This document shows, piece after piece, positions 2,848-58,924 of a DNA stretch of 64,000 nucleotides. Below the pieces are notes generated by a model that was not told the origin of the DNA, searched no databases, and saw only the letters and a list, made by a program, of their open reading frames with translations. The first letter of the stretch is position 1, and every line of letters starts with the position of its first letter. The DNA comes from Adlercreutzia sp. ZJ176. GTDB lineage: Bacteria > Actinomycetota > Coriobacteriia > Coriobacteriales > Eggerthellaceae. Location: NCBI RefSeq assembly GCF_011038975.1, contig NZ_JAAKEC010000007.1, positions 62,001 through 126,000 of the forward strand. The letters run 5' to 3'. Both the position numbers and the translations under genes were made by a program.

Positions 2848-5091
2848 CTAGGAGCTTTTCCGGATGCTCGCGAGCTTGGCGAGCAGGGTCTTGACGTCGA
2901 TGGGCTTGGCGACGAAGTCGTCCATGCCGCTGGCGTCGGCGCGGTCCTGGTCCTCCTTGAAGGTGCTCGCCGTGCAGGCGATGATCCGCACGGTGCGCGC
3001 GTCGGGACGGTCGAGCGCGCGGATGGCCCGCGCGGCCTCGTAGCCGTCCATCACCGGCATGTGTGCGTCCATGAGGATCACGTCGATGTCGCCTGCGCCC
3101 GACGCGCCGAAGGCGGCCACGGCCTCCTCGCCGTTTGCGGCGACGCGCACGCCCATGCCCTCCTCCTCGAGGATGCTCACGAGGATCTCGGCGTTGAGCT
3201 CGTTGTCCTCCGCCACGAGCACTGAGAGCGCCCGCGTCGGCGCGGGTGCGGCCCCGGCGTCGGCGCCCGCGCTCGCGCCAGCGCCGGCATCGGCATCGGC
3301 ATCAGCCGTTGCGCCCTGGCCCGCAGCCCCATCGCCGCCCGCGCCAGCAGCCGCCGCAGCGCCTGCCCCAACAGCCGCAGCGTCACCCGCGCGCACGTCG
3401 CCGCCCGCGCCCGCGGGCGCGACCTCGAGCGGGAGCACCACCTCGAAGCGGCTTCCTCGCCCCAGCTCGCTCTCCACCAGGATGTCGCCGCCCATCTGCT
3501 GGGCCAGCAGGTAGCTGATCGACATGCCGAGCCCCGTGCCCTTCTGCCCCTCCGTGGCGCTCGTCACCTCCTGGGAGAACGCGTCGAAGATGTGCGCGAC
3601 GAATTCGCGGCTCATGCCGCAGCCCGTGTCGGCCACCGAGAAGCGCGTGGTGACCACATCGCCCGCGGGCGCGTCCTGCGCAACCGAGAACGAGATCACG
3701 CCGCCTGCGGGCGTGAACTTCGCCGCGTTCGAGATGATGTTCATCATGATCTGCTTGATGCGCACGGCGTCGCCCATGAGGCGCGGGCGTGCCACGTCGC
3801 GCGCGCATTCGAACGCGATCCCGCGGCCCTCGACGTTCTCGCGCTGCATCGCGCAGAGCTCGTCGACGAGCTCGTCTAAGTCGAACGTGCCGACCGACAG
3901 CTCGACCTTGCCCGCCTGCAGCTTCGACATGTCCAGGATGTCGTTCACGAGCGCGAGCAGGTAATGCGCCGTGCTGCCCATCTTCGCCACGTACCCGGCC
4001 ATCTGCGCGCGATCGTCCAAGTGCCGCTCCATCAGGTGGTTCAGCCCGATGATGCCGTTTAAGGGCGTGCGGATCTCGTGGCTCATGCTCGAGAGGAAGT
4101 CAGCGCGGGCCTCGGCGCGGGCGTTCGCCTCCACGCTGCGGTGCAAAAAGCGGAACAAAAGCGCCATCATGACGCCGAGCGCACACACCACCACGACGAG
4201 CATGACCATGGTCATGATGACGAACCTGCTCGACCGCTCGTCGAACACGCTCTTGGGGACCGCCATCCCGAACGTCCAGCTGGTCCCCTCGATCGGCGCG
4301 AACGACAGCATGAGCTGCTCGCCTGAGGGCATCAAACACGTCGTGGCGAACGTCTCGCGCGCGCCCACGCGCGCGAGCACCGCGGATGCGTCCATGCCGT
4401 CGTCGAACTGCGCCCCGTCCATGACCTCGTAGAACGTCGACCCGCCGCCGCGTCCCAGGATGCGCCGCGCGTTCACGACGTAGAAGCCGTCCTCGCCGAT
4501 GACGCTGCTGTAGCCGCGCCCGTCGAAGCTCTCGATGCGCATCTGGTTGCGCACGTCGCTGATGTCGCACACGCCGAGGAGCGCCGCGAAGCGCACGCCC
4601 TCGGCCGCGATGTCCTCGAGCTTGATGCCGTAGAGCAGCGCCTCGTCCTCGGCCTTGAGCACGCCGTCGCTCCCGTTGAGGCGCATGACGTAGCGGCTCG
4701 TTCCCGCGGGGAAGAAGTCCTCGTAGTCGTGCTCGCCCGGGTCGAGCACGCGCCCCGCGTTCGTGTAGAGCCGCCCCGCCTCGTCGAGGAGGAGCACCTC
4801 GTTGAACGCCTCAGACGCGGCGCTCTCCACGCGCAGGTAGTCCTGCAGGTCGGCGACGGTGCCGTACCCGTGCAGCTCGAAGCGGTTCTCCATGTCCTCG
4901 AGGCGGTCGAGCGAGATCTCGATGGACGCCTCGATCGACTCCACGTCATGCTGGGACACCTCGCCCATGCTGAGGAGCATGTTGTCGGCGACCACGCGGT
5001 TGAGCTGGGTGATGTACGCGCCGACGGCGGCGAGCGCCAGAGCGAGCGCGAGGACGATGGCGGCGATGTGTCTGAGCTTCGAGCTTTCCAT
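2848..5091 (-). CDS. Hybrid sensor histidine kinase with receiver domain
   Basis: Membrane sensor kinase, 747 residues. An N-terminal TM segment (about 8-28) and a second (about 288-312, MTMVMLVVVVCALGVMMALL) enclose an extracytoplasmic sensor of about 260 residues, probably a double-Cache-like fold (inference). Then come a HisKA domain with the H-box SHEIRTPLNG (about 340), a HATPase domain with N-box (NIISNAAKFT), G1 (ADTGCGMS) and G2 (GTGLGMS), an Ala/Gly-rich linker of about 55 residues, and a receiver domain with phosphoacceptor Asp in ILMDAHMPVMDG and the conserved Lys in FVAKPID. No separate response regulator is adjacent, so its output partner is elsewhere. Signal unknown. It lies downstream of metK, separated by a terminator. 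Confidence 0.9.
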   Translation of the reverse strand: MESSKLRHIAAIVLALALALAAVGAYITQLNRVVADNMLLSMGEVSQHDVESIEASIEISLDRLEDMENRFELHGYGTVADLQDYLRVESAASEAFNEVLLLDEAGRLYTNAGRVLDPGEHDYEDFFPAGTSRYVMRLNGSDGVLKAEDEALLYGIKLEDIAAEGVRFAALLGVCDISDVRNQMRIESFDGRGYSSVIGEDGFYVVNARRILGRGGGSTFYEVMDGAQFDDGMDASAVLARVGARETFATTCLMPSGEQLMLSFAPIEGTSWTFGMAVPKSVFDERSSRFVIMTMVMLVVVVCALGVMMALLFRFLHRSVEANARAEARADFLSSMSHEIRTPLNGIIGLNHLMERHLDDRAQMAGYVAKMGSTAHYLLALVNDILDMSKLQAGKVELSVGTFDLDELVDELCAMQRENVEGRGIAFECARDVARPRLMGDAVRIKQIMMNIISNAAKFTPAGGVISFSVAQDAPAGDVVTTRFSVADTGCGMSREFVAHIFDAFSQEVTSATEGQKGTGLGMSISYLLAQQMGGDILVESELGRGSRFEVVLPLEVAPAGAGGDVRAGDAAAVGAGAAAAAGAGGDGAAGQGATADADADAGAGASAGADAGAAPAPTRALSVLVAEDNELNAEILVSILEEEGMGVRVAANGEEAVAAFGASGAGDIDVILMDAHMPVMDGYEAARAIRALDRPDARTVRIIACTASTFKEDQDRADASGMDDFVAKPIDVKTLLAKLASIRKSS

Positions 5092-17499: not shown

Positions 17500-17721
17500 T
17501 CAAGGCGCGGCAACAAGGTTTTGACATTGTACTACAAACGGACAGCCGAGCTTGCTCATGAGGCGTCGCGTGACGCCGCCGAGACCGTGGTTGAGCAGCA
17601 TCTCCAACACCGCGATAGCCTCGGGAACCCACATGTCGATCGCTTGTCGCAGCTTGACGGCTATCTCGTCAAGAACGACCTCCCGCGAGACGCGTTCCCA
17701 CCGTCCCTTCCGCCGTCCGTC
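17500..17721 (-). pseudogene. Gene remnant, unrecognised helical protein
   Basis: On the minus strand a 73-codon open stretch reads like real protein (RWERVSREVVLDEIAVKLRQ, then an amphipathic stretch, then LNHGLGGVTRRLMSKLGCPF) but has no start codon and an in-frame TGA just upstream. A second frame upstream (from about 17755) looks like its beginning, which would fit a frameshifted or truncated gene. I do not recognise the family. It lies between mfd and the first inverted-repeat element and may be debris from the insertion of the neighbouring cassette. Confidence 0.3.
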
Positions 17722-17773: not shown

Positions 17774-17921
17774 GCGAGAAACACGCGATCTGATACCCGC
17801 GCAAGAGAAAACGCCTGATGCCAGCGCGTCAACAAAATGAAAACCCCTGATCAGAGTTAGGCCGAGCTTACATTTGAGCTGATTTGCACACCCGCTCGGT
17901 ATCAGATCGCGTGTTTCTCGC
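17774..17921. repeat. TIR element, copy 1 (148 bp, MITE-like)
   Basis: Both ends are the same 23-bp sequence in inverse orientation (17774-17796 and 17899-17921), beginning gcgagaaacacgcgatctga. The interior carries aaaacccctgatc and catttgagctgatttgcaca, also present in copy 2 at 19988-20136 in the same orientation. No transposase is encoded. The ends can form a long hairpin or cruciform. The two copies bracket the nuclease/GrpB cassette. No target duplication is obvious. Confidence 0.85.
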
Positions 17922-18088
17922 ACGTTGCAAAACATTTCGTGCATTTTGCCCCCTGCCATACTACAATCATGCTCATCAAGGAGCCAGTGCAAGTGCGGCC
18001 TCGCGCCGCAGCCGCCCAGCCAATGCAAACGCCCACATTGCGCTTTCAACTTGCAAGATCCTCCTCATGAGGGCGACGAGGAGGCCCC

Positions 18089-19198
18089 ATGCCCACACGA
18101 CCCTCCAACACGCATCAGCCCGCTATCTGCGTAGGGTTCGACACCGCACTTCAGATCCTCAGAGCCGACGGCATGCGATCGCTCGAAAAGGCGTCGAGGG
18201 TTCGTCGCATGCCTTCCCGTCCGCCAGCGCGAAGCGAGCTTGACGCGCTACGCGATGACCTGTCGCTCGCCTACCCACGCACGGCCCTGACGAAGCCCCT
18301 TCACGTCATCGTCGGAGGCGAGCGGCGACCCAAGCCCTCGAAGGACTACCAGCCTCACCAGTGCACCCAGAAGCTCTCGGGCGGGTCTCTCTACGCATTC
18401 GACAGCAGCTGTCTCGTTGCTGCGCCCGAGCTCGCATTCGTCCAAATGGGCACCGTCCTGCCCTTCGAGCAGCTCATCGAACTCGGATACGAGCTCTGCG
18501 GAACCTACTGGCGCAACCGGGTTGACGGAACCTGCTCCTACCAGCTCAATCCCCTCACGAAAACGAGCCGCCTCGTCTCCTGTGCGCAAGCGAACGCAGC
18601 GCTTCCCGGCGCAAGAAAAGCGCTGAGGGCTCTACAATACGTCGCCGACAACTCGGCCTCGCCAAGGGAAAGCAAGCTGGCAATCCTGCTGGCCCTGCCT
18701 TCGCGATGCGGAGGCTACGGGCTCTCCGGCTTCAAAATGAACCACACCGTTCAAGCGACCAGAAAAGCGCGCGCCATCGCCAGCCGCAACAGCTTTCGAT
18801 GTGACCTCTGCTGGCCAGCCGAGAAGATCGATGTAGAATACCAGAGCAAGGAACATCACGAAGGCGAGGACAGCCGCATCAGCGACTCGAGGAGAGCCAA
18901 CGCGCTTGCCGCCATGGGATGGCTCGTCGTTGGCATCACCAACGATGAGCTTGACAGCTTTACCGCCACTGACGTCATCGCCCGGTCATTGCGCCTGAAG
19001 CTCGGGAAAAGCAACCGAACCAGCATCAACGACTATACGCTGAGGAAAGCCGATCTCAGGCGCCGACTAGACCTTCCCTACGAGGGAAGCAGACGGTACG
19101 TCGCCACATGGGAGGAAACCGCATATGGACGCGTCATCGGACAAGGACGAAAAACTCGGGACGCAACACGCGCCAAAGCAACGGCCCCATCAGGATGA
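18089..19198 (+). CDS. DUF559-like (Vsr/PD-(D/E)XK-type) nuclease-domain protein
   Basis: 369 residues, no signal peptide. The C-terminal third (about 195-290) resembles the actinobacterial DUF559 endonuclease-like proteins: SPRESKLAILLALP, GGYGLSGFKMN, then CDLCWPAEKIDVEYQSKEHH followed by R/D-rich helix and MGWLVVGITNDEL. The D...E-x-Q/K array in CDLCWPAEKIDVEYQSK would be the catalytic core. The N-terminal 190 residues (with QLIELGYELCGTYW) resemble the AbiEi-like front part found in such proteins. Start 18089 has the ribosome site gaggagg 8 nt upstream and a plausible -10 (tacaat) near 17970. It overlaps the next frame by 74 nt. Role could be defence or DNA repair; unproven. Confidence 0.55.
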   Translation: MPTRPSNTHQPAICVGFDTALQILRADGMRSLEKASRVRRMPSRPPARSELDALRDDLSLAYPRTALTKPLHVIVGGERRPKPSKDYQPHQCTQKLSGGSLYAFDSSCLVAAPELAFVQMGTVLPFEQLIELGYELCGTYWRNRVDGTCSYQLNPLTKTSRLVSCAQANAALPGARKALRALQYVADNSASPRESKLAILLALPSRCGGYGLSGFKMNHTVQATRKARAIASRNSFRCDLCWPAEKIDVEYQSKEHHEGEDSRISDSRRANALAAMGWLVVGITNDELDSFTATDVIARSLRLKLGKSNRTSINDYTLRKADLRRRLDLPYEGSRRYVATWEETAYGRVIGQGRKTRDATRAKATAPSG

Positions 19199-20065
19199 CC
19201 GAGTCGAACGAGCTGAACAGGCTGACCAAGCTGCACAGGCTGAGCGGGCTGAGCGGGCTGACCAAGCCGACCGAGCAAGCCAGACCATTCGAGGCGAGCA
19301 GGCCGAACGCACCGGCCCCGCCAACCAAGTCTCGCAGACCGACCTCATCGACCGCACTGCCCCCATCAGCCGAGATGAATCCGCTGGCCCGGTTGACTTG
19401 GCGCAGATGTCCCTTGAGGAGCTCTGGCAGCTGTTCCCCGTACGGCTCACACCCCATCAACCACACTGGAGCGAATGGTTTCGCCAGGAGAGGGAGCGCT
19501 CTTGAGCTTCATGCCGCAAGACGTCGCCATGCGAATCAGCCACATCGGCACCACGGCGATCGAGGGCGTCTGGGCGAAGCCGATCATCGACATGCTCCTG
19601 GAGGCTGATCACGCTGAGTTCCCCCGCATCAAGAACGCGCTCGTCACAGCGGGCTACCTCATCATGGCGGAGGGCGCGCAGCGCGTGTCGCTCAACCGGG
19701 GGTACACGCCGCACGGCCTCGCTGAGCGCGTGTTTCACCTCCACATGAGGACCTGGGGAGACGACGATGAGATCTGCTTCAGGAACCACCTGAGAGCACA
19801 TCCCGACGTCGCACGCGCTTACGAGCAGCTGAAGCTCGGCCTCTGGAAGCGCTATGAGTTCGACCGCGACAGATACACTGAGGCCAAGACTGCGTTCATC
19901 ACCGCGCGCACGCCCAAGGCGAAGGAGGAGCGCGCCGCCTGGAGCAGTCGCCAGAGAGCGCCATTGCACGAAACGGGTTCGCAAGGCGCGAGAAACACGC
20001 GATCTGATACCGCCGCAAGAAGAAAAGCACGCCGCAAACGAACTTGCCATGCAGAAAACCCCTGA
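19125..20065 (+). pseudogene. GrpB-family (nucleotidyltransferase-fold) gene, frameshifted
   Basis: GrpB proteins begin SLEELWQLFPxxLTxHQxxWxxW and continue RISHIGTTAIEGVWAKPIIDML. Here the first block lies in the frame starting at 19125 (ending with TGA at 19503-19505) and the second in another frame from 19475; one missing base near 19488-19500 restores a single protein. The start at 19125 has a ribosome site (gggagg). Before the GrpB core is a hydrophilic extension of about 94 residues built from short Glu/Ala/Gln/Asp repeats (DQAAQAERAERADQADRA), encoded by near-repetitive DNA at 19200-19300. The last 25 or so codons are derived from the second TIR element, so the native C-terminus was changed. 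No slippery heptamer is seen, so programmed frameshifting is unlikely. Confidence 0.7.
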
Positions 20066-20136
20066 TCGACGTTAAGCTGAGCTTATATTTGAGCTGATTT
20101 GCACACCCGCTCGGTATCAGATCGCGTGTTTCTCGC
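19988..20136. repeat. TIR element, copy 2 (149 bp, MITE-like)
   Basis: Same 23-bp terminal inverted repeats as copy 1 (19988-20010 and 20114-20136) and a similar but diverged interior (aaaacccctgatcgacgtta, atttgagctgatttgcaca). Orientation is the same as copy 1. The left end is fused into the 3' end of the GrpB reading frame and the right end lies about 80 nt before nth, so it may also supply the hairpin that ends the upstream transcript. Confidence 0.85.
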
Positions 20137-20218
20137 ACCTTCTTGGCGTAGAATGCGTAAAAGCACCGAACGAAACTCGCACAGCGCCCCAGCGGTACCG
20201 CAACCGACAGGAGAGCCC

Positions 20219-22119: not shown

Positions 22120-22765
22120 CCGTGTCACTGAGCGAGTGGAGAAAAGAGCTGGTACCTCCCGTGTCACTGAGCGAGTGGAGAGAGAAGAGCTGGCACCTCC
22201 CGTGTCATCCCGAGAGAGTGGAATCCGCACAGGTCGTCCTCTTATGTCATCCTGAGCGGAGCGCCCGCGTCAGGCGCCCATCCCGTGTCATCCTGAGCGG
22301 AGCGCCCGCAGGCGCGGAGTCGAAGGATCTGGTCGCAGGCGGGCTGCGCAGGCGGGCGCGGCATACTCGGGGCCAGATCCTTCGACTCGCTGCGCTCGCT
22401 CAGGATGACATAAGAGGAAGATTCGCGCACGCGGGATGACGGAAGAGAGAGATTCGCGCACGCGGGATGACGGAAGAGGAAGGTTTACGCACGCAGGATG
22501 ACATGGGAGGGATTTCGCCCGCTCAGGATGACATGGGAGGGATTTCGCCCCGCTCAGGATGACACAAGAGGGAGATTCTCATACTCAGAATGACACGGGA
22601 GGGGGAAGATTCCATCCCGCCCAGGACGCGGGAGGACGTCAACTCCAGAATGACATGGGAGGATACCAACTCCAGAATGATACGGGAAGGACTCCACCCC
22701 GCCTAGGACAATATGGAAAGGACTCCACCCCGCCCAGGACGCGGGAGGCACCGCCCGCCCCACAT
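22120..22765. repeat. Degenerate inverted repeat array (~640 bp)
   Basis: From 22120 to about 22330 units read 'cctcccgtgtca(tcctgagcgga)' and from about 22370 to 22760 the reverse: 'ctcaggatgacatgggagggattt', with 10 or more imperfect copies spaced about 28-36 bp. The two halves face each other around gatctggtcgcagg...ggccagatccttcgact (about 22325-22385), making a very large imperfect palindrome. Units decay toward the right (ccagaatgacatgggagg, ccaggacgcgggagg). No gene is seen between 21993 and 22823. The same words occur at 1-257. Confidence 0.75.
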
Positions 22766-58752: not shown

Positions 58753-58924
58753 CATTTTGGCAGAAATCTTCAGTTCTTTGTCTTCCCGTATCCCCGGCAA
58801 GCCCCATTGGGGCCCCGATTGAGCTGTTTTGTACATCATACCTGACATATTGCGAGCAATCGGATCTCTTTTGGAGTCCGTAACCCTTTCGAACGACAAA
58901 CATCTGAAGATTTCTGCCAAAATG
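58753..58924. repeat. Palindromic element with 21-bp inverted ends (172 bp)
   Basis: Both ends are the same 21 bp in inverse orientation (58753-58773 and 58904-58924), starting cattttggcagaaatcttca, and the match continues weakly for about 9 bp inward (tttgtc). The interior contains a smaller hairpin (ccccattgggg) and gattg/caatc arms. No gene is supported in 58645-59164; the left flank also has imperfect repeats (gcatgagccgaacacgagccgcaacgcgcgccaggccgtgc-type words). MITE-like or an RNA hairpin. Confidence 0.75.

Follow-up and report, generated by a model that had tools for sequence, protein, structure and literature searches.

Background

Among the short palindromic repeats of bacteria, REPINs and their RAYT proteins are the established case of populations of small sequences linked to a single host gene, with a cellular role that is still open (PMC8049555). 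The present analysis concerns a 64,000-nucleotide stretch of Adlercreutzia sp. ZJ176 (Eggerthellaceae; NCBI RefSeq assembly GCF_011038975.1, contig NZ_JAAKEC010000007.1, positions 62,001 to 126,000), referred to as the window, in which two short elements with terminal inverted repeats (TIRs), W1 and W2, bracket a nuclease-like gene (gene A) and a GrpB-like gene. Elements of the same general design lie beside homologues of this gene in nine genera, and we consider it reasonably likely that the nuclease-like gene forms one system with the elements, which its protein would bind and would once have copied or moved in trans. Among the open-licence papers listed in literature searches, none describes such a nuclease-element system in its title or abstract, and none came up for DUF559 together with an inverted repeat; one of those listed, on Adlercreutzia equolifaciens, mentions inverted repeats (PMC6566806).

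Linkage of elements to nuclease homologues

The main features lie at the following positions, counted from the first letter of the window:

17774-17921, no strand: element W1 of TIR family 1, with arms 17774-17797 and 17898-17921, upstream of nuclease-like gene A
18089-19198, plus strand: nuclease-like gene A, 369 aa, with a weak DUF559/REase_MTES_1575 match
19988-20136, no strand: element W2 of TIR family 1, with arms within 19983-20012 and 20112-20141
58757-58920, no strand: 164-bp element of TIR family 2 (TTGGCAGAAATCTTCAGATCTTTGTC type), with TGCACG outer boxes on both sides

The window genome (G000; 2.72 Mb, 49 contigs) also carries a second paralogue, gene B (333 aa), which is intact both here and in a second species, Adlercreutzia sp. 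ZJ473 (G001, Eggerthellaceae). Gene A is flanked by family 1, and about 300 bp upstream of gene B there is a copy of family 2. The association was counted by an inverted-repeat scan at 35 homologue loci outside these two genomes, two of them in a third genome (G002) and orthologues included. An element was found within 600 bp at 24 of the 35 loci, as compared to none of 20 mock genes (Fisher p 3e-7), and elements were present on both sides at seven loci, with a density of 0.56 per kb. Control loci (20 loci from 12 of the same genomes, of which L274 and L280 are partly masked) contained one element in 96 kb; the iorA and recombinase loci gave six inverted-repeat calls in 80 kb, four of which are one other repeat. 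The 24 linked loci come from nine genera, one of which is that of the window.

The comparison of ends supports their being specific to a paralogue. In G002 (85% complete), where families 1 and 2 were not found, an end of its own flanks one paralogue on both sides (L258). Scores between left and right ends of the same locus were 9, 20, 19, 25, 19, 12 and 21 at seven loci, as compared to a mean of 6.2 and a maximum of 12 between loci; the ends used here for the window species deviate from those next to genes A and B, as one has the outer letters of another copy and one is of the family-2 type. End similarity also tracks protein similarity (27 loci, rho 0.305, permutation p 0.0005, computed with the exact ends beside genes A and B), and the correlation is present without G000 and G001 (24 loci, rho 0.35, p 0.002).

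A separate observation concerns five nuclease homologues (L247, L251, L252, L168 and L243), at which homology between genomes stops either near the elements or where the nuclease gene ends. Four of these five adjoin the same gene, which we take to encode a dihydroorotase-like protein.

Architecture of the elements

Families 1 and 2 have a central box in common, CTGACCTGsGGTTTTGC (core GACCTGsGGTTTT), which occurs in either orientation. In the two elements beside gene A it is located as follows:

17836-17854, minus strand: central box of W1, which reads CTGATCAGGGGTTTTC on that strand; it lies 67 bp from one end of the element and 62 bp from the other, and exceeds shuffled cores at p 0.04
20051-20069, minus strand: central box of W2, offset as in W1; taken alone it does not exceed shuffled cores (p 0.35)

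At p<=0.05 against shuffled cores, the box is present in 8 of the 13 family-1 and 8 of the 12 family-2 elements of G000, and in 12 of 31 gene-adjacent elements of other genomes; in the family-2 element of the window it does not exceed shuffled cores (p 0.34). Measured in elements with the box at this level, the distance from box to end in family 1 is 67 or 77-78 bp on the left and 62-63 or 73 bp on the right, one inside-out copy excepted, and in family 2 it is 70, 80 or 91 bp on the left and 76-77, 86 or 97 bp on the right, in both species. The spacing is helical, with a phase coherence R at 10.5 bp of 0.98-0.99 for sets of 7 and 12 elements that were hand-picked and are non-independent by shared ancestry (the 12 include a_C3, with a box p of 0.075).

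Conservation extends beyond the ends. Outside those of family 2 an outer box, TGCANG, is found at +17 to +22 (T 0.96; G, C, A and the last G 1.00; 54 ends), and outside those of family 1 a TT at +4/+5 (0.94 and 0.88) and a weaker CGTG at +18 to +21 (48 ends). Within the family-1 end, 15 of the 24 positions are invariant in 52 ends; these were sought at <=3 mismatches, a threshold by which worn copies are missed and the conservation of ends is somewhat favoured. The same central box, between ends of a different sequence, also occurs in an element near iorA in another genus (L110 of G058, 3201-3381).

Distribution, constraint and inversion in two Adlercreutzia species

In G000, 26 family-1 ends were found at <=3 mismatches, all of which pair into 13 elements of 109-170 bp, with none in a reversed control; G001 likewise has 13 elements. 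A search for this end, as the earlier note on this DNA had proposed, identified it in 2 of 138 Eggerthellaceae genomes, and these same two are the only ones with gene A at >=88% identity (next best 49%). Family 2, with the end TTGGCAGAAATCTTCAGATCTTTGTC, emerged when the window and 11 loci (124 kb) were scanned for further inverted repeats lying close together. There are 12 copies of it in G000 and 15 in G001, and of the 137 genomes searched it turned up in 2.

Since 11 of the 13 family-1 elements in G000 stand alone, and 12 of the 13 are at matching sites in G000 and G001 (by flank comparison, in some cases from a single flank), most copies are solitary, old and stationary. Each element of G000 except C1b, whose flanks have no match in G001, has a counterpart there. 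One family-1 copy is inside out (C44:60800-60908), and another is located in frame within the linker of iorA, where G002 and G003 carry other sequence; it is the only intragenic one among 25 window-genome elements in a survey of gene neighbours based on crude gene calls. Other palindromic repeats were observed in the scpB-rluB gap of G002 (L178/L179) and G003 (L180), and likewise in the iorA linker of G003 (L181).

In 23 orthologous pairs of elements from the two species, changes were counted at 24 of 1148 TIR positions, 17 of 221 positions in the central box, 15 of 252 in the outer box, 366 of 2379 in the core and 545 of 4158 in the flanks, which is a sevenfold lower rate of change in the TIRs than in the cores. 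The flank comparison is limited to flanks with >=95 of 140 matching bases, and the inside-out element was counted for TIR and core and left out of the box and flank counts. The ratio of indel events to mismatches was 22:383 in cores and 197:545 in flanks, and 21 of the 23 pairs are of equal length, the exceptions being W1 (148 versus 149 bp) and C22 (165 versus 175 bp, a difference of 10 bp). The changes have no period-3 signal (22 pairs, sum chi2 28.8, 44 degrees of freedom, p 0.96), and a reading frame inside the elements was rejected. Ends, box and spacing have been kept at sites without movement, which fits a protein-DNA complex.

In some pairs the core is flipped relative to its flanks, namely in 1 of 12 family-1 pairs (C2) and in 3 of 12 family-2 rows, or 3 of 11 if C5/C10a, which is duplicated, counts as a single row; this makes 4 of 23 for both families together. 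Plastid genomes are well known for small inversions of segments between closely placed inverted repeats. Inversion has also been reported for Correia elements (reviewed in PMC10969869).

The nuclease-like protein family

Gene A belongs to a large Eggerthellaceae family of DUF559-like proteins, which probably have a restriction-endonuclease fold. Homologues are present in 110 of the 138 Eggerthellaceae genomes, often several per genome, and the linkage suggests a role for this very common gene family. A system with several paralogues per genome and private ends would also provide protein-site pairs that can be swapped in binding tests.

The protein of gene A matches DUF559 with E 0.004, below the Pfam cut-off. 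In an alignment of 15 homologues, every member matches DUF559 at E<=0.1 (best E 2e-4; the window protein below the cut-off), 12 of the 15 match REase_MTES_1575, and 11 match the NCBIfam DUF559 model. Residues D239, E250, Q252 and H257 are invariant in this alignment, with D or E instead of Q at position 252 in more distant paralogues, and presumably this set would suit a PD-(D/E)XK-like centre. The libraries used gave no function beyond DUF559-like for the homologues, and PADLOC gave nothing beyond a single match at E 0.06. Viral contigs contained no match for the end or for the protein, and phage and plasmid collections gave chance-level matches only.

Origin of the element pair at the window locus

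W1 (148 bp, 24 of 24 arm positions paired) and W2 (149 bp, arms of 30 with 29 paired) have perfect TIRs of 24 bp, GCGAGAAACACGCGATCTGATACC. The 20-bp core of this end occurs 4 times in the window, as compared to 0.01 expected from shuffles, and the cores of the two elements are identical in 80 of 106 aligned columns. The elements and the similarity of their cores had been described in the earlier note, which placed them correctly and gave the identical ends as 23 bp, one less than their actual length. The other gene between them occupies two frames:

19125-19505, plus strand: GrpB-like gene, N-terminal part, in a different frame from the rest; the frame is broken in the window genome
19475-20065, plus strand: GrpB-like gene, remainder, PF04229 E 1e-32

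W2 overlaps the 3' end of the GrpB frame and precedes nth, and an intact 282-aa copy of GrpB is present in G001. The cargo that had been named, a DUF559-like nuclease and GrpB, is firm for GrpB, though its frame is broken, and weak for the nuclease.

In G001 the gene pair is flanked on both sides by a 317-bp direct repeat (92.7% identical), composed of the 3' end of GrpB and the element. Because of this repeat, the W1/W2 pair is best read as a tandem duplication of the GrpB 3' end plus element with later loss, and not as a composite insertion. The location between mfd and nth is found in the window genome only, since in G001 the left neighbour is another gene, which we take from its sequence to be a molybdopterin-type oxidoreductase gene. 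A remnant of this gene, which adjoins the unit intact in G001, was observed at about 17544-17715 of the window.

These data are at odds with a small mobile cassette with swappable cargo, as the earlier note had suggested. Most of the copies are alone and share their sites between the two species, target-site duplications were looked for and not found, and duplication explains the pair; with no clean empty site either, a composite mobile cassette is not supported. Nor did a matching transposon with similar ends appear, as ends at <=3 mismatches pair only into short elements of 109-187 bp. Its last suggestion, that the nuclease itself uses the elements, is supported by the 24 of 35 linked loci against none of 20 mock genes. 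What the note had named as counter-evidence, elements that occur singly with no link to cargo genes, is borne out by half: most are indeed single, yet the link to the nuclease gene holds.

Dispersed elements in another genome

A sample of 400 kb (12%) of the single-contig genome G022 gave 31 inverted-repeat calls, of which 9 are another repeat (TCATCCTGAGCG type) and the other 22 represent 20 distinct elements. The central box is present at p<=0.05 in 9 of these 20 (11 of the 22 calls). One homologue in the sample, L290, has an element on either side. In stretches that contain no homologue of the gene, four elements match gene-flanking ends of the same genome, two resembling those of L251, one those of L249 and one the flanking pair of L290, with scores of 23, 19, 15 and 15 (95% level of shuffles 8-10).

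Further repeats of other kinds were observed. Inverted repeats with TCATCCTGAGCG, which also occurs several times in G022, are located at 22237-22418 of the window and are unlike W1 and W2. Pairs of TGTTTCACGTGAAACA-type sites, which resemble parS partition sites in their motif, are found at L050 8410-8488 and L088 582-775.

Proposed mechanism

We propose that a paralogue tends to have its own element family, with members of mostly 140-190 bp. An element consists of two inverted ends of about 20-30 bp, probably specific to the paralogue, at fixed helical spacing, with the central box in many copies; some copies adjoin the gene, on one side or on both, while the rest are scattered through intergenic DNA. 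The protein may bind the two ends in one nucleoprotein complex, perhaps with a further factor at the central box, and in the past it may have copied or moved elements in trans, as RAYTs do for REPINs. The copies are now long-lived, rarely moving and sometimes inverting, and kept by selection, perhaps in the service of the host. A bolder form of this proposal, in which a restriction-endonuclease-fold family runs its own replicating elements by means of private ends and a conserved box factor, copying them into intergenic sites, is possible and, to our judgement, doubtful. If true, it would be mobilisation without a DDE, HUH, tyrosine or serine transposase, across a whole family of gut bacteria.

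Several results weigh against the proposal. No element lies within 600 bp at 11 of the 35 homologue loci, nor at L301, the second homologue sampled in G022. Of the seven end scores from the same locus, two (9 and 12) fall within the range found between loci, and in pairs below 60% identity the end-protein correlation is weak (rho 0.15, p 0.09); it comes mainly from closer relatives and partly reflects shared descent, several loci being orthologous. The background of such repeats in G022 is non-negligible (31 calls in 400 kb). Among its four matching elements the central box has p 0.06, 0.54, 0.90 and 0.91, none reaching <=0.05, and one of the four best matches an end from another genome (L252, score 24). 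As to the protein, the nuclease assignment is weakly suggested by family matches below cut-off; no PDB sequence matched it, and a structure model built from two sequences was uninformative (pLDDT, the predicted local distance difference test score, of 29). Direct repeats, the mark of a target-site duplication, are in no clear excess at any offset (best z 3.4 among about a thousand trials), and no clean joint marking an empty site was obtained at the loci of the unshared elements C1b and Z108 or at the iorA and scpB-rluB sites of G002 and G003. With neither an empty site nor a target-site duplication found, mobility is an inference, as is the binding of the elements by the protein.

Alternative explanations

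The main rival is that the elements are operators of a DNA-binding regulator, AbiEi-like for instance, which moves nothing and forms looped operators that control the neighbours and the nuclease gene, inversion being a by-product of the inverted ends. We regard this as a real possibility that falls somewhat short of likely, and the pairing of gene and element is common to it and to the proposed two-part system, so that the weights given to the two overlap. None of the 25 window-genome elements lies between convergent genes by the crude gene calls; they occupy tandem or divergent intergenic DNA, apart from the one inside iorA and two with a neighbour uncalled on one side. Helical spacing and constraint at fixed loci would also be expected of looped operators, and AbiEi-type antitoxins bind paired 23-bp inverted repeats 3 or 13 bp apart (PMC7319586). 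However, neither AbiEi nor a winged-helix family is among the matches listed for the 15 homologues, inspection by eye gave no theme shared by the neighbour genes, the core has flipped between species together with its central box, and one element is inside a coding gene. Less probable, and in our view unlikely, are ordinary Correia-like miniature inverted-repeat transposable elements of a lost or unseen transposon, which would be near nuclease genes because of shared insertion hot spots. Correia or Rickettsia palindromic elements provide precedents for the size and TIR length seen here, for location in intergenic DNA, for in-frame insertion in a gene and for inversion (PMC10969869, PMC2229807), but such an origin does not account for the missing target-site duplication, for the pairing of ends (<=3 mismatches) at 109-187 bp, so that no longer element with these ends was seen, for the constraint on ends and spacing in unmoved copies, or for ends that vary from locus to locus yet mostly agree between the two sides of a gene.

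The 4 of 23 orthologous elements that are inverted relative to their flanks could also be taken to indicate a set of invertible promoters switched by a dedicated recombinase, as by Mpi in Bacteroides. This is improbable, as 19 of the 23 elements keep one orientation and no recurrent promoter was seen in the cores (by eye only). The proteins with PF00589 or PF00239 that have close counterparts in both species are two XerC/XerD-like ones and one small serine recombinase, which itself has 61% homologues in G002, where neither TIR family was found at 85% completeness; there was no convincing candidate among them for a dedicated recombinase. A term search of a published inverton survey found neither Eggerthella nor Adlercreutzia named (PMC11892184). 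Finally, arms of 24-30 bp can pair in transcripts, as in a structured RNA or terminator. We give this explanation hardly any credence, because the loops are about 60-140 nt, no Rfam match is present in the window, the folding of the cores is on average no more stable than that of shuffles (mean z -0.5; single cores to -4.0), and sequence is kept in the ends, not pairing alone, as the invariant positions indicate.

Comparison with known systems

A role of restriction-endonuclease-fold proteins in DNA transposition is known from TnsA of Tn7, which acts together with a DDE transposase and other Tns proteins. In the present case no Tns-type set was seen beside the genes, although no search was aimed at one. 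To our knowledge, Correia elements have no linked gene. The Correia (NEMIS/CREE) elements of Neisseria resemble the present ones in having 24-bp TIRs, a length of about 107 or 155 bp, a frequent location upstream of genes, and inversion (PMC10969869, PMC2229807). They differ in having target-site duplications and TA ends, whereas the elements described here have no target-site duplication, have diverging cores, and have ends that go with the gene. Like the Rickettsia palindromic elements (PMC10969869, PMC2229807), one copy is in frame inside a conserved gene, iorA; unlike them, only 1 of 25 copies is intragenic by our own gene calls, and there is no period-3 signal. The operators of AbiEi-type antitoxins offer a further parallel, in that members of one protein family have 23-bp inverted repeats in pairs, set 10 bp further apart in some members than in others (PMC7319586). 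These operators are located in the antitoxin's own promoter, 3-13 bp apart, whereas here the repeats are about 100 bp apart and no AbiEi match was found.

The closest likeness is to the REPIN-RAYT system. In both cases, inverted conserved ends enclose a less conserved spacer of set length in intergenic DNA, copies are found beside a vertically inherited gene as well as scattered, end classes are tied to genes, and persistence is long (PMC3116915, PMC8049555). Recurrence of the gene-side ends elsewhere in the genome, as known for REPINs, was found in G000 and G001 (families 1 and 2) and in the G022 sample. The differences are in an apparently lower copy number (12-15 per family in two genomes, the other genomes having been sampled, as compared to tens to hundreds of REPINs), in the ends of about 20-30 bp with a central box and outer boxes at helical steps, and in the linked gene, which is DUF559-like by weak matches instead of a Y1/HUH transposase. 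As the protein is unrelated to RAYT, the system is not a member of the REPIN-RAYT family; a second system that follows the same logic with an unrelated protein would allow the two to be compared.

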